Positions 2,936 to 19,871 of a stretch of DNA of 64,000 nt are shown piece by piece (within the stretch, counting starts at the first letter, position 1; each line of letters starts with the position of its first letter). The stretch spans positions 1,499,001 through 1,563,000 of the forward strand of contig NZ_CP020921.1 of assembly GCF_003057965.1 (NCBI RefSeq). Direction: 5' to 3'. The stretch is from Thermodesulfobium acidiphilum. Its GTDB lineage: Bacteria; Thermodesulfobiota; Thermodesulfobiia; Thermodesulfobiales; Thermodesulfobiaceae. The notes below the pieces were generated by a model. The model worked only from the letters and a program-made list of their open reading frames with translations, was not told the DNA's origin and ran no database searches. The translations under genes and the position numbers were made by a program.

Positions 2936-3997
2936 GTGGACAACTTTCCAAAACTTACTTCTTTAGTACGCTGTGCTGGCTGAGCAGCAAAACTCAATCC
3001 AAAGGACCTAGGTGAGGTTCTAAAAGATTTACCGAAATTTGAACATCCGGGCCTTATTTTTAACTCCGATGGCCTTGATGACGCGGGAGCTTTAGTTATA
3101 AAAGACGATATAGCCATCGTTCAATCTGTCGACTTTTTCCCTCCTGTGGTAAATAGCCCTGATTTATACGGCAAAATTGCAGCAGCCAATTCTCTTTCTG
3201 ATTTATATGCAGTTGGTGCAAAACCCATTACTGCTCTAAATATTTTAGGATTTCCAAGATATGATATTGAACTAAACGTCATAAATGAAATACTCAGGGG
3301 TTCCCATGAAAAAGTAAAGGAAGCAGGAGCATTGATACTGGGGGGGCATAGCATGGACGATATAGAACTTAAATATGGTCTTAGTGTTACTGGAATTGCA
3401 AAAAAAGAAGAGCTAATAACTCACAACAACGCCCAACCTGGAGATATAATAATCCTTACAAAACCTCTAGGCACAGGAATACTTACTTCTGCTCTAAAAA
3501 TCGAACTTATTGACGAAATAGATATGCAAGATGCTCTAAATTCTATGCAAGAATTAAATTATTTTGCAGGTGAAGCACAAAAAAGATTTAAAGCGAGTTC
3601 TGGTACAGATGTTACAGGTTTTGGGCTGATCGGTCATGCAATAAACATAGCAAAATCTAGTAATGTTATATTTGAAATATTTTCAAATTCTTTACCTATT
3701 TTCGAAAGAGTACTAGAGCTCGCAGATGAAGGAGTACTACCTGCAGGAATTTTTGCAAACATTGATTTCTACAAAGAAAATGTAGTTGAAATAGGAAAAA
3801 TTCAAGAAAGTTATAGATATGTTATCTACGATCCGCAAACCTCTGGGGGTTTGCTTTCCACTTATAAACCAGATGTCGTAGATGATGCTTTAAGATTTCT
3901 AATTAATAATGGAGTAAACGCACGCATTATAGGCGTTGTTAAAAACAATACGGTCTTTAATCCTGGCACGATTGTTATTAAAGAAGGGTCTATTTAA
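2936..3997 (+). CDS. selD: Selenide, water dikinase, itself a selenoprotein
   Basis: Makes selenophosphate from selenide and ATP for selenocysteine and selenouridine synthesis. The frame from GTG 2936 reads through an in-frame TGA at 2981-2983 (residue 16) and continues to TAA 3995-3997, giving 353 residues. The N-terminus reads VRCAG-Sec-AAKLNP, aligning with the catalytic Cys/Sec and Lys of SelD, followed by the conserved DDAG, VQSVDFFPP and GGHSMDD motifs. An ORF caller starting at GTG 3146 would lose the active site. A SECIS-like hairpin follows the TGA. The stop overlaps the ATG of the exporter permease by one base. Confidence 0.95.
3003..3021 (+). promoter_or_regulatory. Bacterial SECIS-like hairpin in selD
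   Basis: A 7-bp stem (3003-3009 with 3015-3021, one G-U pair) closes a 5-base loop AGGUG. The loop begins 27 bases after the TGA, inside the usual bacterial window, and has G in its second position as bacterial SECIS loops need for SelB. The same bases encode SelD residues. Confidence 0.75.
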
Positions 3998-10081: not shown

Positions 10082-10972
10082 TTGATATTAGTATTTTTAG
10101 TTTTTTTATTGATCGTTATAAAAATAGATTTTAGCCTTCAGCCAACTTCATATATAAATTTTAGCGAAAAACTTCCAAACAATTATCTTGAACAGAATAA
10201 AACCAATCTTTTAAGGGTGGTGGTTTCATCCACCCTTGACCCTAAGGAAACGATACATATCTATCAGCCACTGCTTCAGTATATTTCAAAAAAAACTGGA
10301 CTTCAATCGGTACTAATTCAAAAAAGAACTAACTTTGAAATAAAAGACTTGTTCAATTCTAAAACAGTTGATATCGGGATAATAACCGCAAGCGCCTATG
10401 TGCTTGATCAGGATCAAATGGACATTTTAGCAATACCAGTAATTAACAATGATATAACCTTTTCATCTGTTATTGTTTCAAACAAAAATAATATAAGAAC
10501 TTTTGAAGACTTAAAAGGAAAATCAATAGCTTTCACCGATATTGCATCGTTTTCAGGATACCTTATCCCTTTATTTTATTTAAAAGAAAACAATCTCGAT
10601 ATAAACTACTTTTCAGATCACATTTTTACATTCAATAGCTCTGATTCTATTCGAGCTCTTTTGGACGATATGGTTGATGCTGCAGCTTTAAATAGCAAAT
10701 TTTTTAAAACATATATAAGAGAAAATCCTGAAAAAACAAAAAATTTACACATTGTCTGGCAGTCTCCAATAAGAATTGGCAATCCCCCAATAGTAGCCAG
10801 AAAAAACATAGATCCAGTAATTGAAAAAAAAGTTAAAGATGCCCTGATAAACATGTCAAATGATCCCGAAGGGCAAAAGATTCTTAAAACTCTAGGATAT
10901 GACAGATTCTCAAAACCTCAGCCAAATCTATATTTACCTATAAAAATAATTATCAAAAAACTTGAACAATGA
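10082..10972 (+). CDS. PhnD-like periplasmic binding protein, sensor-associated
   Basis: About 296 aa. An N-terminal membrane anchor is followed by a type-2 periplasmic-binding fold with PhnD/TtrS-like motifs: STLDPKETIHIYQPLLQYISKKTG, GIITASAYVL, DLKGKSIAFTD, SGYLIPLFYL, DPEGQKILKTLGYDRF. The frame is open upstream to 9992 with no ATG, GTG or TTG other than the TTG at 10082, which has no ribosome site; a GTGGGGG at 9996-10002 hints at a start with a non-standard codon near 10004-10007. Its stop overlaps the kinase start by 4 bases (ATGA). Confidence 0.82.
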   Translation: MILVFLVFLLIVIKIDFSLQPTSYINFSEKLPNNYLEQNKTNLLRVVVSSTLDPKETIHIYQPLLQYISKKTGLQSVLIQKRTNFEIKDLFNSKTVDIGIITASAYVLDQDQMDILAIPVINNDITFSSVIVSNKNNIRTFEDLKGKSIAFTDIASFSGYLIPLFYLKENNLDINYFSDHIFTFNSSDSIRALLDDMVDAAALNSKFFKTYIRENPEKTKNLHIVWQSPIRIGNPPIVARKNIDPVIEKKVKDALINMSNDPEGQKILKTLGYDRFSKPQPNLYLPIKIIIKKLEQ

Positions 10973-12369
10973 GCTTAAAAACAAAAATTTTAATCATTAA
11001 TATCTTTTCAATATTTATAATAACTTTAGGAATAGTTCTTGAAATAAAGTTTGTTCTGACTCAAAATCTTGAAGACAGATTAATTTTAAGAACTACCAAT
11101 ATGGCATCAATTCTTTCAGATAGTATTATAGAACCGCTATTATCTAATAATATTTATTTAACCCATCAAATTCTTACTCAATACAAAGAAAATAACTCAG
11201 AAATAAGTTATATAAGCATACTAAATAGCCAGAACGAAATACTCAGCAGCACTTTCACCAACGGCTTTCCAAAAGAACTTTATCATTTACAAACTAGTAA
11301 AACGGAAAACAATGTAGCAGTATTTTCTTGTGAAATGGGTAAATTTCTCGACGTTAAGTATCCAATTGCCGATGGATCTCTAGGGTATATTCACATTGGC
11401 GTTACAGAAAAAGAGGTAGAACAAAGAATACAAGAAATTTTAGAAAAAATTCTTTTTCTAAGTTTTTTTATTAATTTATTGGCATCACTTTTACTTTACA
11501 AACTTACCAACTCAATAACTGATAACTTAAAAAAATTAACACTATACGCAAAAAACATAGCACTTGGAAATAAGGTTTTAGAACCTGTTATTAAAACCAA
11601 TGACGAAGTAAGAGATTTGTTCATATCATTTAAACACATGCTTAAAGCATTAGAAAGGTCTTCTAAAGAAGAAATACAACTAATTACAAAGTTAAAAGAC
11701 GAAGAGCTCAAAAGAGAACTCTTGAAAAGGACTATGGAAACTCTTGAAAAGGAAAGAAAAAGACTTTCAATGGAAATTCACGATTCTGTTATGCAAAATC
11801 TTGCATCTATAAATATAATGTTAAAAATATTTCAATCAAAGCTAGATCAAAAAGAAAAATTAGACCTGGATAATATACAAAAGCTAATAGAAACGACTAT
11901 AGAAGAACTCAGAAATATTGCGAATAATCTCAGACCTCCCCAGTTAGAAAAGTTGGGTCTAAAATCAAGCTTAGAATCGTTTTTTAATGAAACTGAAAAA
12001 AGACATAATTTAAAAGTAAACTTTGATTTCTCAATAAACGAAAAAGTGTTAGACTGGACTTGGTCGATCAATATCTATAGAATAATACAGGAAGCAATAT
12101 CAAATATTGTTAAGCACTCAGGCGCAAATAATGTTTTCGTTTCAATAAAAGAGGTAAACGATAAAATTGAGCTTGAAATAAAAGACGATGGGAAAGGATT
12201 TGATGTCGATGAAACCCTAAGCAAAAAGTCAAATCATTTAGGAATAATAGATATGAAAGAGAGGACAAAGACTTATAAAGGAGAATTTTCTATAAACTCT
12301 ATAAAAGGAGGTGGTACAATTGTCAAAATCTTTTTCCCAATACCCAAAAACAATGATATTGGTCGATGA
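10969..12369 (+). CDS. NarX-type sensor histidine kinase
   Basis: 466 aa. Membrane helix near 6-28, extracytoplasmic domain to about 155, second helix near 158-178, HAMP linker, a coiled coil, then a HisKA_3 dimerisation helix (ERKRLSMEIHDSVMQNL) with phospho-accepting H271. The ATPase domain contains DWTWSINIYRIIQEAISNIVKHSG and DDGKGFD. Coupled to the binding protein before and the regulator after it. In TtrS the PhnD-like domain and kinase are one chain; here they are separate, so the binding protein probably presents the signal to this kinase. Confidence 0.93.
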   Translation: MSLKTKILIINIFSIFIITLGIVLEIKFVLTQNLEDRLILRTTNMASILSDSIIEPLLSNNIYLTHQILTQYKENNSEISYISILNSQNEILSSTFTNGFPKELYHLQTSKTENNVAVFSCEMGKFLDVKYPIADGSLGYIHIGVTEKEVEQRIQEILEKILFLSFFINLLASLLLYKLTNSITDNLKKLTLYAKNIALGNKVLEPVIKTNDEVRDLFISFKHMLKALERSSKEEIQLITKLKDEELKRELLKRTMETLEKERKRLSMEIHDSVMQNLASINIMLKIFQSKLDQKEKLDLDNIQKLIETTIEELRNIANNLRPPQLEKLGLKSSLESFFNETEKRHNLKVNFDFSINEKVLDWTWSINIYRIIQEAISNIVKHSGANNVFVSIKEVNDKIELEIKDDGKGFDVDETLSKKSNHLGIIDMKERTKTYKGEFSINSIKGGGTIVKIFFPIPKNNDIGR

Positions 12370-13018
12370 TCACGCTATATTAAGGGCAGGTTTAAAAGCC
12401 CTAATTCAGGAACATCAAGAAGAATTTAAGGTAATAGAAGAAGCATCAAATGGAACTGAAGCTATAGATAAAATAAAAAAAATAAAACCAGATATTGTTC
12501 TATTGGATATATCCTTACCAGATATAAGTGGATTAGATCTAATAGATTCAATAAAAAAATATTCTATAAATACTAAAATTCTTATATTAAGTATGTTTGA
12601 AGATGAAACTATGATTGTTAAAGCCCTAAAAATGGGAGCAAATGGATTTATACCAAAAAGATTAGCATACGAAGAACTAATTGAAGCACTTAAAACAATA
12701 TCAAAAGCAGAAGACGTATATGTCCCATCATGCCTTGCCAAAACAGTTCTTAGAGGGATGCTAAATAAAGACAAGAAGACAAAGTTAAGCACGAGAGAAA
12801 GCCAGGTTTTAAGATATACTGCGCTAGGTTATGGAAACAAGGAAATGGCAAAAAAACTCAACCTTTCTGTCAAAACCATAGAAACATATAAACTTAGAAT
12901 TTCAGAAAAAATAAACGCTCAAAAAAAATCCGATCTTGTAAAATACGCTATCAAAGAAGGGCTTTTAAAAGAAGAAGAAGGAACAGGTATCTCAGATCAA
13001 GAAGAAACTTCAAATTAA
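12320..13018 (+). CDS. NarL/LuxR-type response regulator
   Basis: 232 aa from TTG 12320, which has GGAGG 8 bases upstream; the GTG at 12311 overlaps that site. The receiver domain has the acidic pair DD16-17, phospho-acceptor D63 (IVLLDISLPD) and a conserved Lys near PKRLAYEE. The C-terminal LuxR helix-turn-helix is STRESQVLRYTALGYGNKEM followed by LNLSVKTIETYKLRI. It overlaps the kinase gene by about 50 bases. It probably controls this operon or the neighbouring TSUP genes. Confidence 0.92.
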   Translation: MSKSFSQYPKTMILVDDHAILRAGLKALIQEHQEEFKVIEEASNGTEAIDKIKKIKPDIVLLDISLPDISGLDLIDSIKKYSINTKILILSMFEDETMIVKALKMGANGFIPKRLAYEELIEALKTISKAEDVYVPSCLAKTVLRGMLNKDKKTKLSTRESQVLRYTALGYGNKEMAKKLNLSVKTIETYKLRISEKINAQKKSDLVKYAIKEGLLKEEEGTGISDQEETSN

Positions 13019-14257: not shown

Positions 14258-14704
14258 TTAAGTAAATAGCCTAAAGATGTCCAAAATTTTTCCAAACAGC
14301 AAAACGAATAAAATTGTGATAATTAATCTTCCAAAAAAAATAATTTCAAAGTTTGCCCCAATAGCAACAAATATAGCTGTATCCTCAATCATTGCATGAG
14401 ACAAAACCAAAAAAATATTTATTAAGACTATTTCTTTTGGACTTATAAGTCCTTTCTTTACTTCATCAAACATAGTTCCTGCACCATATATGAGACCAAA
14501 GATTATTCCAGCTGCCAAAGGAATTGCAGAATTTTTAGAAAAACCAAGATATTTAATAATTTTTGAAACACTATTACAAAACTTACCCCAAAACGAGCTT
14601 CTTTTAAAAATTTCAATAAAAATCATGAGAGGTATAACTATCGTTGCTATGGTAAAAATAGTTCCAATCGATCCGAAAGCTGCTTCTTCTAGTATTTGTA
14701 TCAT
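14258..14704 (-). CDS. Gate (nucleoside-recognition) domain membrane protein B
   Basis: 148 aa, four to five hydrophobic segments. It carries gate-domain features: PLMIFIEIFKRSSFWGKFCN, AIPLAAGIIFGLIYGAGTMF and LSHAMIEDTAIF. Its ATG overlaps the stop of the next upstream gene, so the pair is coupled. Paired small gate proteins resemble the SpmA/SpmB arrangement and may form a heteromeric transporter. Substrate unknown. Confidence 0.75.
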   Translation of the reverse strand: MIQILEEAAFGSIGTIFTIATIVIPLMIFIEIFKRSSFWGKFCNSVSKIIKYLGFSKNSAIPLAAGIIFGLIYGAGTMFDEVKKGLISPKEIVLINIFLVLSHAMIEDTAIFVAIGANFEIIFFGRLIITILFVLLFGKILDIFRLFT

Positions 14705-15132
14705 CTTAGCATTATATTAAGGCAAAAACCCGCAATAAAAGAAGTTAAAATTCTAAAAATAGTTATGAAAAAAGGGTTTATACCTATCTTTGAACAAATA
14801 ACTCCTTCAAGAATAAGACTGTGAGCAATCAAGACCATTGTTGCAAGTATGGTGATCTCTCTAGGATTAAAAGTTAAACCCATTATTACTCCAACTGCAG
14901 AATATATGTTCAAAATATAACCTGTAATCAGAACAAGTGAAGCCTCTCCTGGAAGACCGAAATATTTCATAAACGGAGAAAATAAGATATTTAAATAATA
15001 TATAAAGGGAGTAGCCTTAAGAATTGTTACCACAAAAAAAACAGGAACAACTATTTTAACAAGATTAAAGGTCGTAATTAATCCTCTATTAAAACCAACC
15101 TTTACACCTTCTAGAAGATAACTTTTATCCAT
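14701..15132 (-). CDS. Gate (nucleoside-recognition) domain membrane protein A
   Basis: 143 aa from ATG 15132 (MDKSYLLEGVKVGF); an upstream TTG at 15153 is possible but has no better ribosome site. Membrane segments around LVKIVVPVFFVVTILKATPF, ASLVLITGYILNIYSAVGV and ATMVLIAHSLILEG, with the family's PREI and HSLILE motifs. It is the first gene of a coupled pair with the gene at 14258-14704. Confidence 0.75.
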   Translation of the reverse strand: MDKSYLLEGVKVGFNRGLITTFNLVKIVVPVFFVVTILKATPFIYYLNILFSPFMKYFGLPGEASLVLITGYILNIYSAVGVIMGLTFNPREITILATMVLIAHSLILEGVICSKIGINPFFITIFRILTSFIAGFCLNIMLR

Positions 15133-15230
15133 GTATATAATTATATCAAACAAAACTCTTAAAACTCTTTACAGATTTTTTAAAATATATAATATTTTTA
15201 TATATATTCATTAGAGTTTAAGGAGAAAAA

Positions 15231-15881
15231 ATGAACATAGTACATATTTTTTCAGGAGGATTAGATTCCACCACTCTTTTATACTATCTGCTAAATGAAG
15301 GTCACAAAGTCAAAACAATAAGTTTTTTCTATGGGCAGAAACATAATAAGGAACTTGAATGCTCAAAAAATATTGCCAAAAAACTAAATATAGAAAATAA
15401 ATTAATTGATCTAAGCGCTCTAAAAAATGTTTTTGGAAAAAGTTCTTTAACAAGTGAAATAGATGTGCCTGAAGGTCATTATAACGATATAAATATGAAA
15501 TCTACAGTAGTCCCAAACAGAAATATGATTTTTTTATCAATTGCAATCTCTTATGCAATATCCTCAAACTTTGATGCAGTGTCTATAGGAGTTCATGCAG
15601 GAGATCATGCAATATATCCAGACTGCCGCCCTGTTTTTATAAACAGGATGAAAGAAGTTGCAAAAGTCTCAGACTACAACGAAATAGACATACTCACACC
15701 CTTTTTAGATTTCAAAAAATGCGAGATTGTAAAAATAGGTCTGGAACTAAAAGTTCCTTATGAAATGACATGGACATGTTATAGGGGAGAAGAAAAACCC
15801 TGTCTAAAATGCGGCGCATGTACAGAAAGGCTTGAAGCATTTAAACTAAATAATGTAAAAGATCCTCTACTTCTTATTTAA
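15231..15881 (+). CDS. queC: 7-cyano-7-deazaguanine synthase
   Basis: Converts 7-carboxy-7-deazaguanine to preQ0 with ATP and ammonia in queuosine biosynthesis. 216 aa. The PP-loop SGGLDSTT is at residues 8-15, the C-terminal zinc site is CYRGEEKPCLKCGACTERLE, and VPNRNMIFLSIA and HAGDHAIYPDCRP are typical. Ribosome site AAGGAG. No other queuosine gene is adjacent. Its last 15 bases overlap the end of the convergent selenoprotein gene. Confidence 0.96.
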   Translation: MNIVHIFSGGLDSTTLLYYLLNEGHKVKTISFFYGQKHNKELECSKNIAKKLNIENKLIDLSALKNVFGKSSLTSEIDVPEGHYNDINMKSTVVPNRNMIFLSIAISYAISSNFDAVSIGVHAGDHAIYPDCRPVFINRMKEVAKVSDYNEIDILTPFLDFKKCEIVKIGLELKVPYEMTWTCYRGEEKPCLKCGACTERLEAFKLNNVKDPLLLI

Positions 15882-16085
15882 TTCCTTTCTTGATTCCTCC
15901 ACTACACGGTGGACGTCAGCCAAACATCAAGTACCCCTGGGATTGTTCAAATGACATGCACACTTACCTTCCTTCTTTTTGTTTACTATAAACTGCTCTA
16001 TTCTAGAGATACCGTTGTTCTTTATCACGTCTTCTTTAATTTCATTATCAGTAAAACCAAAACAATAACAAATAGTTTGATTCAT
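15867..16085 (-). CDS. Bfd/CopZ-like iron-sulfur protein with predicted selenocysteine
   Basis: 72 residues if the in-frame TGA (plus-strand 15927-15929) is read as Sec53; without readthrough it is 52. The N-terminus has ICYCFGFTDNEIKEDVIKN, the C-terminus KCACHLNNPRGT-Sec-CLADVHRVV. Four cysteines (6, 8, 42, 44) plus Sec53 and Cys54 match the pattern of small [2Fe-2S] proteins in which that place is normally a Cys-Cys pair followed by LG(N/D)V. Coding quality is the same on both sides of the TGA, and a SECIS-like hairpin follows. Role: probably electron transfer or metal handling; partner unknown. Confidence 0.8.
15898..15913 (-). promoter_or_regulatory. SECIS-like hairpin of the small selenoprotein
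   Basis: On the minus strand a perfect 5-bp stem UCCAC/GUGGA closes the loop CGUGUA. The loop starts 19 bases after the TGA, within the bacterial window, with G at its second position. The stem is short, so support is moderate. Confidence 0.6.
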
Positions 16086-16254: not shown

Positions 16255-17517
16255 ATGGACAACACCAAAATGCACAAATCGCTTGGTATAGATTTAAAGG
16301 CTCATGATACCCTAATTAGAGCACTTCCAGAATTATTTAAGGAATGTTTTTTAAATAAAGAACAGGATCTAAAAAGTCTTTCATACTTTTATTCAGTAGT
16401 TGCTGATATACACGGGACAAGAGTAAAAGAACTAATAGAACACAAAAATAAAGGACCCGTTATTGGTTCGTTTTGTATTTACGTACCCGAAGAAATAATT
16501 TTAGCTATAGGTGGACAACTGGTAGGCCTTTGTGCAGGAGCTGATTTTTGGGTCCCATACGGAGAACAAATAGTACCAAAAAATCTGTGCCCATTAATAA
16601 AAGCAGGTATCGGAGCAAAATTTTCAAAAACCTGCCCATACTTTCAGGTAATAGACCTGTTAATAGGAGAAAATACATGTGATGGCAAAAAAAAGGCATG
16701 GGAAATACTTTCTGATATGGTCGAGATGTATATAATGGATATGCCAAACAAAAAAAGCAATAGTGGGTTAAAGCTTTGGCAGGAAGAAGTAAAGAGTTTA
16801 TGCAATTTCCTGGAGAAAAAATTCAGCAAACCTATAAGTTTTGATTCTCTTTTAAAAGCAGTACAGAAAGTAAATGCAAAAAGAAGTGCACTAAATAGAC
16901 TTTATGAAACTAGAAAAAATTCTCCGACTCCAATATCAGGAATAGATACTCTATTAGTTACGCAAATAGGCTTTTATGATGACACAGAAAGATATACAAA
17001 AATGGTAGAAACTCTTGCCAAAGAATGTGAAGAAAAAGCATTATCAAATTCTAAAAGCAATGACAAAAAAAGAATTTTGGTTACAGGCTCTCCAATGGTT
17101 GTGCCTAATTGGAAGGTTCACCATGTGATAGAAACAAGTGGTGCCGATGTAGTGGTCGAAGAAAATTGCACCGGCACAAGATATTTTAAGGACAACGTTT
17201 CAATAGAAAATTCTTTAGCTAAAGAAGATCTTTTAAAGAATATATCAGATAGGTATATAAGGAACATAAATTGTGCATGTTTTTCTCCAAACACAGATAG
17301 AGAAGAAGAGATATTAAAAATTTGTAAAGATTATAAAGTTGATGGCATTGTATATGCATCGCTTAGCTTTTGTACTACTTATATGATAGAAGCAGAAAAA
17401 ATAAGAAAAGTAGCGAAAAAAAATAATATACCTATGATTACAGTAGAATCAGATTACTCGTTTTCGGATCTTGGCCAACTCAGGACAAGAATAGAAGCCT
17501 TTATAGAAAACCTATGA
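16255..17517 (+). CDS. 2-hydroxyacyl-CoA dehydratase-like protein, possible double-cubane ATPase partner
   Basis: 420 aa, HgdB/FldB/C superfamily. Conserved cysteine motifs include KNLCPLIKAG, SKTCPYFQVIDLLIGENTCD, EENCTGTRYF, NCACFSPNTDRE and ASLSFCTTYMIE. True dehydratases need two different large subunits; only one is encoded, next to its activator. A lone subunit with an activator is the arrangement of the double-cubane cluster proteins, which reduce small molecules in an ATP-driven way. Own ribosome site AAAAGGAGAG. Assignment to that subgroup is inference. Confidence 0.8.
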   Translation: MDNTKMHKSLGIDLKAHDTLIRALPELFKECFLNKEQDLKSLSYFYSVVADIHGTRVKELIEHKNKGPVIGSFCIYVPEEIILAIGGQLVGLCAGADFWVPYGEQIVPKNLCPLIKAGIGAKFSKTCPYFQVIDLLIGENTCDGKKKAWEILSDMVEMYIMDMPNKKSNSGLKLWQEEVKSLCNFLEKKFSKPISFDSLLKAVQKVNAKRSALNRLYETRKNSPTPISGIDTLLVTQIGFYDDTERYTKMVETLAKECEEKALSNSKSNDKKRILVTGSPMVVPNWKVHHVIETSGADVVVEENCTGTRYFKDNVSIENSLAKEDLLKNISDRYIRNINCACFSPNTDREEEILKICKDYKVDGIVYASLSFCTTYMIEAEKIRKVAKKNNIPMITVESDYSFSDLGQLRTRIEAFIENL

Positions 17518-18263
17518 AGATACTTGGTTTGGATATAGGCTCAAGGAGTATAAAATGGGTTCTTTATGAAACAAGTTTTAGTTGTATCTTAGAAAAAGGT
17601 ATATTAGACAGTACCCCACACAGTCTTGAAAGAATAGAAGAAATTATCCCCTCCTTTGACAAAATTGGTCTTACCGGTTATGGCAGACATAATTTAAACA
17701 ACGTACTAAGAACAAAATCTCCAAAGATAGTTTCAGAGATAACCTGTCACGCTAAGGGAGCAAAATTTATAGAGCCAGGACACCATTATTTATTAGATAT
17801 TGGAGGTCAGGATACAAAGTTTATAACTCTCGATGCATCAGGAAAAATTATAGATTTTAAACTTAATGATAGATGCTCAGCCGGAACGGGTAGATATATT
17901 GAAAATATGGCTAAAATTTTAGATTTAGAGATTCAAGATTTTATAAACATGGCAATTAAATCCGAAAAACCTTCTAACATAAATTCAATGTGTACCGTAT
18001 TTGCAGAAAGTGAAATAATAAGTCTAATTCATTCGAGAGAAAGAATAGAAGACATATCTGCAGGAATAATAAAATCGTTAATATTTAGAACAAAAGCCTT
18101 AATTGGAACAAATAAAATAGATGAAAAAATATTACTATTGGGTGGTCTTTCAGAATTAGAAAACATAGAGATTTTGTTCGAAAGGTTTGATTTAGAAGTC
18201 AAAAAAAATGAACTATCAAGGTATACAGGTGCATTGGGAGCAGCACTAGTTTTAGTTGATTAA
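17514..18263 (+). CDS. BadF/HgdC-type ATP-dependent activator
   Basis: 249 aa ASKHA-fold ATPase. It has LGLDIGSRSIKW (phosphate 1), LLDIGGQDTKFI, the cluster cysteines in DRCSAGTGRYIE and MCTVFAESEII, and LGGLSE. Dimers hold one [4Fe-4S] cluster between subunits and drive one-electron transfer at very low potential by ATP hydrolysis. It overlaps the upstream gene by 4 bases (ATGA), so the two are produced together. Confidence 0.92.
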   Translation: MKILGLDIGSRSIKWVLYETSFSCILEKGILDSTPHSLERIEEIIPSFDKIGLTGYGRHNLNNVLRTKSPKIVSEITCHAKGAKFIEPGHHYLLDIGGQDTKFITLDASGKIIDFKLNDRCSAGTGRYIENMAKILDLEIQDFINMAIKSEKPSNINSMCTVFAESEIISLIHSRERIEDISAGIIKSLIFRTKALIGTNKIDEKILLLGGLSELENIEILFERFDLEVKKNELSRYTGALGAALVLVD

Positions 18264-18337: not shown

Positions 18338-18634
18338 ATGCAAAGAACTGGATTCCCATCGCCTGCAAAAAATTACGAAAAGCTTGATATAGATCTTAAC
18401 AAATTGCTAATAGATAGTCCTTCTTCAACATTTTTCTTTAGAACAAAGAGGGATTATAAAGAATTAGGTCTAAAAAATGGGGATATCATAATAGTAGACA
18501 GGTCAAAACATCTGAGAAAATCTATCCTATTAGTCGTTTTACTGGACGGACGCCTTACAATAAAGAATATCTGTGATATAAAGCCAGAAACAGAAATATT
18601 TGGCAAAATTACCTATGTCATTAGAAAATTGTGA
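18338..18634 (+). CDS. umuD: UmuD'-like protein, pre-shortened and lacking the catalytic serine
   Basis: 98 aa. QRTGFPSPAKNYEKLDIDLN matches UmuD starting right at its cleavage site (E. coli QCGFPSPAADY), so the N-terminal arm removed during SOS activation is not encoded. The self-cleavage serine (normally GDSM) is replaced (TKRDYKELGLKNGD), while the lysine region survives in RLTIKNI. The end GKITYVIRKL is normal. It should therefore act as ready-made UmuD' for the polymerase encoded next. Confidence 0.88.
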   Translation: MQRTGFPSPAKNYEKLDIDLNKLLIDSPSSTFFFRTKRDYKELGLKNGDIIIVDRSKHLRKSILLVVLLDGRLTIKNICDIKPETEIFGKITYVIRKL

Positions 18635-19871
18635 AAGTCTTTTTGCCTTGATAGATTGCAATAATTTTTACGTATCGTGTGAAAGGCTATATAATCCAGC
18701 CCTATTATACAAACCTGTTGTCGTATTATCAAATAACGATGGGTGTATAATTGCAAGATCCAACGAGGCAAAAAAATTAGGGATAAAAATGGGTGTTTCG
18801 TATTTTCAAATAAGAGATTTCCTTAAAAAAAACAAAGTTGCGGTTATCTCATCAAATTATGAAATATATGAAGATATATCAAAGAGATTTATAAATATAA
18901 TAAAGTCCAAAATATGCTTTGTAGAAGCATATTCAATAGACGAAGCTTTCATAGAGTTAAAAGGAATTTTTAAAAAGAGGAGTTTTGAATTTTGTAAAGG
19001 GTTAAAGGAAGATATATATCGGCTTATAGGAATACCAGTTTCTATAGGTATAGGCAGAACAAAAACTCTGGCAAAGGTTGCAAACAAAATAGCCAAAAAA
19101 AATAAAGACCTCAACGGAATATTTGATATAACAGGAAGGGAAGAAGAAATCCTCAAAACCTTTGATGTGGAAGATATATGGAGAATTGGCAAGAGCAAAG
19201 CCAATTGTCTGAAGGGTATGGGAATAACAAATGCCCTAAATCTATCAAAAATAGATAATTCACTTGCTCAAAAAACTCTTGGCATAAATGGCTTAACTAC
19301 AGTATTCGAGTTAAGAGGAATAAAATGCATAAATTTACAAGAAAAAAAGCCTATCCAAAAGGAGATAATAGTATCAAGGTCTTTTGGACATGATATCGGC
19401 AACTATAAAGAATTGAAAGAAGGCGTTTCACATTTTTCTGCAATTGCTGCTAAAAATATGAGAAACCTAAACTTATATACAAAAACGTTATCTGTTTTTA
19501 TAACTTCTAATCCATTTAAAGATGGGTTTTATACTAATCAGGCAGAAATTAATTTTGACTTTTATACCAGAGATACATTTCTTATATTACAAGCTGCTGA
19601 AAAATGTCTAAATAAAATATTCAAAGAAAATATAAAATACAAAAAAGCCGGTGTAATCCTAAGGAATTTAACAAATTGCGTTTGTTTAGGAAATTTATTT
19701 ACAAATTTAGAAATTGAAAACAAACACAATCTGATGAAAGCCATAGATTTATTAAACAAAAAAATAAAAAAAGACGCTGTATTCTTCGCTGCTGAAGGAG
19801 TAAATAAGCTCTGGCAAGCAAAAAAAGAATATACATCAAATTACAACGCAAGCGAAATAATTCTTATTTAA
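18615..19871 (+). CDS. umuC: Y-family DNA polymerase V catalytic subunit
   Basis: 418 aa from ATG 18615, overlapping umuD by 20 bases. Catalytic motifs: ALIDCNNFYVSCERLYNP with D14, VVLSNNDGCIIARS, and YSIDEAFIEL; then the HhH region and C-terminal little-finger domain ending with KKDAVFFAAEG, as in UmuC. Does translesion synthesis with UmuD' on RecA filaments. The TTG at 18600 is less likely than the ATG. Confidence 0.93.
   Translation: MSLENCESLFALIDCNNFYVSCERLYNPALLYKPVVVLSNNDGCIIARSNEAKKLGIKMGVSYFQIRDFLKKNKVAVISSNYEIYEDISKRFINIIKSKICFVEAYSIDEAFIELKGIFKKRSFEFCKGLKEDIYRLIGIPVSIGIGRTKTLAKVANKIAKKNKDLNGIFDITGREEEILKTFDVEDIWRIGKSKANCLKGMGITNALNLSKIDNSLAQKTLGINGLTTVFELRGIKCINLQEKKPIQKEIIVSRSFGHDIGNYKELKEGVSHFSAIAAKNMRNLNLYTKTLSVFITSNPFKDGFYTNQAEINFDFYTRDTFLILQAAEKCLNKIFKENIKYKKAGVILRNLTNCVCLGNLFTNLEIENKHNLMKAIDLLNKKIKKDAVFFAAEGVNKLWQAKKEYTSNYNASEIILI

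Follow-up and report, generated by a model that had tools for sequence, protein, structure and literature searches.

A stand-alone CopZ-type protein of Thermodesulfobium acidiphilum with a predicted selenocysteine beside a putative [2Fe-2S] site

Introduction

The window analysed here, a stretch of 64,000 nucleotides (GC 34%) from the 1.77 Mb genome of Thermodesulfobium acidiphilum, holds on its minus strand (16085..15867) a 72-codon frame that runs from ATG to TAG and contains a single in-frame TGA, codon 53. Does translation end at this codon, or is it read as selenocysteine (Sec), and what kind of protein would then be made? The original prediction had taken the frame to read cleanly on either side of the one TGA, as we also find, and had proposed a small Bfd/CopZ-like iron-sulfur selenoprotein outside the described selenoprotein families.

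The copper chaperone CopZ family does include described (2Fe-2S)-binding selenoproteins, in a form 1 (GxUC) and a form 2 (CU), with Sec in the first or the second place of the pair (PMC9312934, 2022; PMC13188914, 2026). Form 1 is represented by WP_245779778.1, its motif GxUC being given in Table 1 of PMC13188914, and the parts of the two papers cited here give no function for it. The source named for form 1 in the 2026 review is Zhang and Gladyshev 2008 (PMC2398784), the main text of which is without CopZ; the first report may stand in a supplement or elsewhere.

Results

The 72-residue product is MNQTICYCFGFTDNEIKEDVIKNNGISRIEQFIVNKKKEGKCACHLNNPRGTUCLADVHRVVEESRKELNKK, with GTUC around the TGA codon. 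The start of the gene lies 170 bases from the divergent gene, and its end overlaps by 15 bases the end of queC, which we do not regard as belonging to the Sec-protein system (Table 1). An open run of 19 codons after a TGA is expected by chance in about 40% of cases and is no evidence by itself; the run being uninformative, we used homology as the test.

Table 1. Features of the window and associated loci (window positions, except in the last row).
Feature	Position	Strand	Basis
selD, with Sec at residue 16 (RCAGU)	2936..3970	+	in-frame TGA at 2981-2983
queC, convergent neighbour	15231..15881	+	TIGR00364, 221.4 bits
Predicted CopZ-type BFD-like [2Fe-2S] selenoprotein gene, stand-alone, form 1 GxUC	15867..16085	-	profile matches, congeners, fold, TGA conservation
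Apical hairpin, SECIS-like, TCCAC-CGTGTA-GTGGA	15898..15913	-	comparison of 59 distinct sequences
TGA predicted to be read as selenocysteine, residue 53, then TGT (Cys54)	15927..15929	-	TGA in 60/60 Sec-clade loci; TGC/TGT in other relatives
CxC pair of the predicted cluster site, codons 6-8	16062..16070	-	C6 and C8 invariant; align with C75/C77 of 2HU9
Divergent neighbour, double-cubane-cluster-containing anaerobic reductase	16255..17517	+	NF040772, 470.6 bits (cut-off 350)
Activase, 2-hydroxyacyl-CoA dehydratase / benzoyl-CoA reductase type	17514..18263	+	TIGR00241, 190.2 bits (cut-off 125.4)
Ten permease-adjacent loci (other genomes)	L174, L176, L183, L186, L191, L192, L195, L216, L219, L225		

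All three congeners carry the same single TGA at 77-86% identity, with the last 19 residues nearly unchanged; a related strain with a genuine stop and an unrelated tail would have counted against the original prediction, and what the congeners show is the TGA and the downstream residues retained. Among the four congeneric species, the stretch of 12 codons that opens with the TGA differs synonymously only, and codons 58-62, which lie under the hairpin described below, are invariant, whereas most of the remaining gene varies at synonymous sites. The host phylum is represented among the genomes sampled by this single genus. A search of 395 genomes of a second phylum (that of genome G026) gave 59 matches, 56 of which contain a single TGA within the matched region, and the Sec gene occurs in 56 of these 395 genomes. 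In each of the 60 Sec loci examined the codon is TGA followed by TGC or TGT, and it is never TAA or TAG. Distant homologs have TGC or TGT at the Sec column and then Cys in 102 matches (a few loci being counted twice), and a profile search of 386 genomes across the domain revealed that Cys relatives extend beyond this column; one scan for Cys relatives had pre-selected the CC pattern, whereas the domain-wide profile search made no such demand. The claim that the TGA replaces a cysteine of a CC pair after NPxG is thus borne out, as is the expectation that column 53 is Cys elsewhere. Two Cys-form copies depart from the pattern: one near a contig end (L074 9056) has Phe at the Sec column, and another (L051 327) has Cys there followed by Arg.

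Because of this conservation, and not because of its length, we take the frame after the TGA to be real protein. If the TGA were a true stop, a 52-residue peptide would result that has neither the final helix nor the C-C pair, and a reader could point out that the readthrough is seen by comparison alone and that open runs of this length are common by chance; however, such a stop does not explain protein conservation past the TGA in two phyla, changes confined to synonymous sites in the first downstream codons of four congeners, covariation in the hairpin or cysteine codons at the same column in other relatives, and we consider it very improbable. We found no point in favour of a TGA produced by pseudogenization or sequencing error in a Cys gene, a negligible possibility in view of the identical TGA in 60 loci and of a start codon and frame intact in all congeners, and one already refuted in effect by the second-phylum and 60-locus TGA counts.

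The machinery for Sec insertion is encoded by the host: selD, selB, selA and the gene for tRNA-Sec were all detected above cut-offs, with selB adjoining tRNA-Sec, and selD lies in the window, as the original prediction had pointed out, and itself reads through a TGA. We found tRNA-Sec in the congeners and in G026, and a search for it in a Cys-form genome (G032) gave none. As a discriminator within the second phylum the presence of tRNA-Sec fails, being near-universal there with or without the gene. According to PMC12013277, the known selenoprotein genes of a Thermodesulfobium genome number four.

Just 3' of the TGA lies a hairpin with an early loop G, as looked for in bacterial selenoproteins, at exactly the coordinates and with the G at loop position 2 that had been predicted. 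It extends from +16 to +31 (the T of TGA being 0), and its five pairs join +16 to +20 with +27 to +31; stem and loop are identical in the four congeners. When 59 distinct sequences were placed in a gapless alignment anchored on the TGA, 99.3% of cells were paired, falling to 28-65% when the partner was slid by 1-3 columns, and eight cells carried compensatory changes on both sides of the stem. The loop G occupies position 2 in 41 of the 59 sequences and position 2, 3 or 4 in all of them. Since the protein (VxRVV) causes part of this conservation, stronger support for the hairpin comes from the compensatory pairs and the silent third positions. Folding the RNA of this region from single sequences gave no significant result (z -0.2 to -1.8), the fold of lowest energy for the window sequence is not the consensus hairpin, and an Rfam search of the window at the gathering threshold found no SECIS; the putative element is visible by comparison only. 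We conclude that UGA 53 is almost certainly decoded as selenocysteine by SelB and tRNA-Sec, aided by this SECIS-type hairpin within the coding sequence.

To which family does the protein belong? Its best profile match is NF047645 (CopZ_Nterm_CC, putative iron-sulfur cluster-binding metallochaperone; 60.8 bits, E 1.6e-16, cut-off 100), over the last 53 of 138 model positions, and it also matches NF045877 (the Csac_0668 family; 24.7 bits, E 1.9e-5, cut-off 190). Both cut-offs are missed because the N-terminal part is absent, and three Sec proteins from the second phylum likewise score below both. The match to Pfam PF04324 (Fer2_BFD; 18.1 bits, E 0.0036) misses the gathering score of 26. A profile match to AfCopZ (2HU9, the N-terminal domain of Archaeoglobus fulgidus CopZ; E 6e-5) places C75, C77, C109, C118 and C119 of 2HU9 opposite C6, C8, C44, U53 and C54. 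Judged through the NF047645 and 2HU9 profile matches, the product has a CopZ-like BFD domain of the cd10141 type, in agreement with its original description as a small Bfd/CopZ-like iron-sulfur protein, the cluster being predicted. The residues past the TGA form the last helix of an AlphaFold2 model with a pLDDT of 93. Neither a single-sequence phmmer search of the PDB nor a Foldseek search with the model returned a useful match, and a single-sequence scan of the genome contigs gave none.

C42 is not conserved among family members. There are five conserved thiol or selenol positions for four ligands, and either U53 or C54 may be the fourth. Very probably, C6, C8, C44, U53 and C54 make up the predicted cluster site together with one spare vicinal selenol or thiol. 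A role in iron storage like that of Bfd (bacterioferritin-associated ferredoxin) would fit the weak Fer2_BFD match, but this match stays below the gathering score while the CopZ N-terminal models and 2HU9 match better, the ligands towards the C terminus are spaced C-x8-[CU]-C and the recurring neighbours are ars or mer genes, so that we give this role hardly any credence.

As predicted, Sec takes the first place in the C-C pair that follows NPxG, within a GTUC motif. By its cd10141-type family and this form 1 Sec motif, GxUC with an in-frame TGA for Sec, the 72-residue protein is to be classed as a form 1 member and not as a new family; the assertion that the family is undescribed did not hold, form 1 appearing in the cited parts of PMC9312934 and PMC13188914 and the name of NF045877 including the word (seleno)protein. 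Csac_0668 (NF045877; form 2, CU) has a homologous C-terminal domain but differs in having Sec second in the pair, in a model of 161 positions, whereas here Sec is first. NF047645 includes an N-terminal stretch of about 85 positions with no counterpart here, and has Cys in place of Sec. The solved 2HU9 domain, of 130 residues, shares the five aligned Cys/Sec positions, yet it too has an N-terminal part missing here and Cys at the Sec column.

In a tree of 151 domain sequences, all 56 Sec rows fall on one side of a single branch (support 100/97), which is present in 200 of 200 bootstrap trees; the domain offers few columns, and the deeper order is uncertain. The host genus clusters with three sequences whose genomes, 1.8 Mb in size, belong to one family (f285; support 99/98), which suggests gene transfer between phyla. 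At most 40 codons of open frame precede the CxC pair in 44 of 60 Sec genes compared to 0 of 82 Cys matches (Cys median 104), a Cys sample pre-selected by the CC pattern and drawn from other taxa, and Sec and the short form therefore go together in this sample. Judged by the tree and these lengths, the Sec proteins make up a single clade with good support, whose members are short and for the most part have one domain.

An ArsP_1-family permease is encoded within 3 kb of 15 of 57 Sec loci compared to 3 of 80 Cys loci (Fisher 0.0002), and ArsC within 3 kb of 11 of 57 compared to 1 of 80 (Fisher 0.0003); since the loci share ancestry and were drawn from different taxa, the P values overstate independence. 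ArsP_1 permeases, ArsR, ArsC-like LMWP, ACR3-like SBF exporters and a Thioredoxin_3 protein recur at the second-phylum Sec loci. At ten loci (Table 1) the permease gene ends some 2-40 nt upstream of the Sec gene on the same strand, and about a third of the non-congener Sec loci (21/56) have at least one ars-type gene within ~6 kb. The Cys loci feature MerT (34/80), MerR (30/80) and MerP/HMA (26/80), along with MerA (by eye) and some MerB. The setting common to Sec and Cys loci is resistance to soft metals and metalloids. No ars gene was found beside the Sec gene in the window or the congeners; on the host contig an ArsP_1 gene lies at 99 kb and the Sec gene at 1515 kb. At L176, L183, L191, L213, L223 and L225, a TauE/SafE-like permease gene (by eye) lies just 3' of the Sec gene on the same strand.

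In the 2026 review (PMC13188914), resistance to Hg or As is the setting given for most selenoproteins of a transport group, but ArsP goes unmentioned. A full-text literature search for a selenoprotein with ArsP, which had Haft and Tolstoy 2025 outside its scope, retrieved only an unrelated review. The link to ars genes may be new.

Discussion

As a whole, the observations are probably best explained by a Sec-decoded CopZ-type BFD-like [2Fe-2S] protein that acts in the handling of soft metals or metalloids, a role we favour because part of the Sec loci lie near ars genes and many Cys loci near mer genes. We infer, with about even confidence for and against, that it is a small cytoplasmic redox or binding partner for these ions. 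Reading of UGA 53 by SelB and tRNA-Sec, aided by the SECIS-type hairpin 16-31 nt downstream, would yield a protein in which C6, C8, C44 and either U53 or C54 hold the predicted [2Fe-2S] cluster and one selenol or thiol is spare. Placed on or next to the cluster, the Sec-Cys pair could then reduce or hold a soft ion, for example As(III), Hg(II) or Cu(I), or could pass electrons to a partner. In the host genome the protein might have the same general role or might, as its position faintly hints, deliver electrons to the divergent double-cubane reductase.

This family belongs to the predicted selenoproteins in which Sec lies at or next to an iron-sulfur site, and a single short, widespread clade enriched beside ArsP, ArsC and ArsR makes an arsenic or soft-metal role testable. 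Because the stand-alone form scores under both curated cut-offs, automatic annotation likely ends the protein at residue 52 or misses the gene. More tentatively, the short Sec clade may be a distinct functional branch that moved from mercury or copper to arsenic (ArsP-type export, or reduction of arsenate or organoarsenicals), with Sec as a metalloid-binding or cluster-adjacent redox residue and the host-genus copy transferred from a second-phylum thermophile.

An electron donor to the divergent double-cubane reductase and activase, in place of a metal-handling protein, would account for the head-to-head arrangement (16085, 16255) kept in the window and in 3/3 congeners, and small [2Fe-2S] proteins can carry electrons. 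This adjacency cannot be weighed, however, because the entire 14 kb around the Sec gene is syntenic throughout the genus, and the reductase did not recur beside the Sec gene at the 56 other loci; we regard such a donor as unlikely, and retain the soft-metal or metalloid role. Elsewhere in the window, two small membrane proteins with 'Gate' (nucleoside recognition) domains are encoded on the minus strand with a 4-base overlap (14258-14704 and 14701-15153), UmuD- and UmuC-type genes stand side by side (18338-19871, plus strand; by eye), and genes for a PhnD-like periplasmic binding protein, a histidine kinase and a LuxR-type response regulator follow one another (10082-13018, plus strand; by eye).
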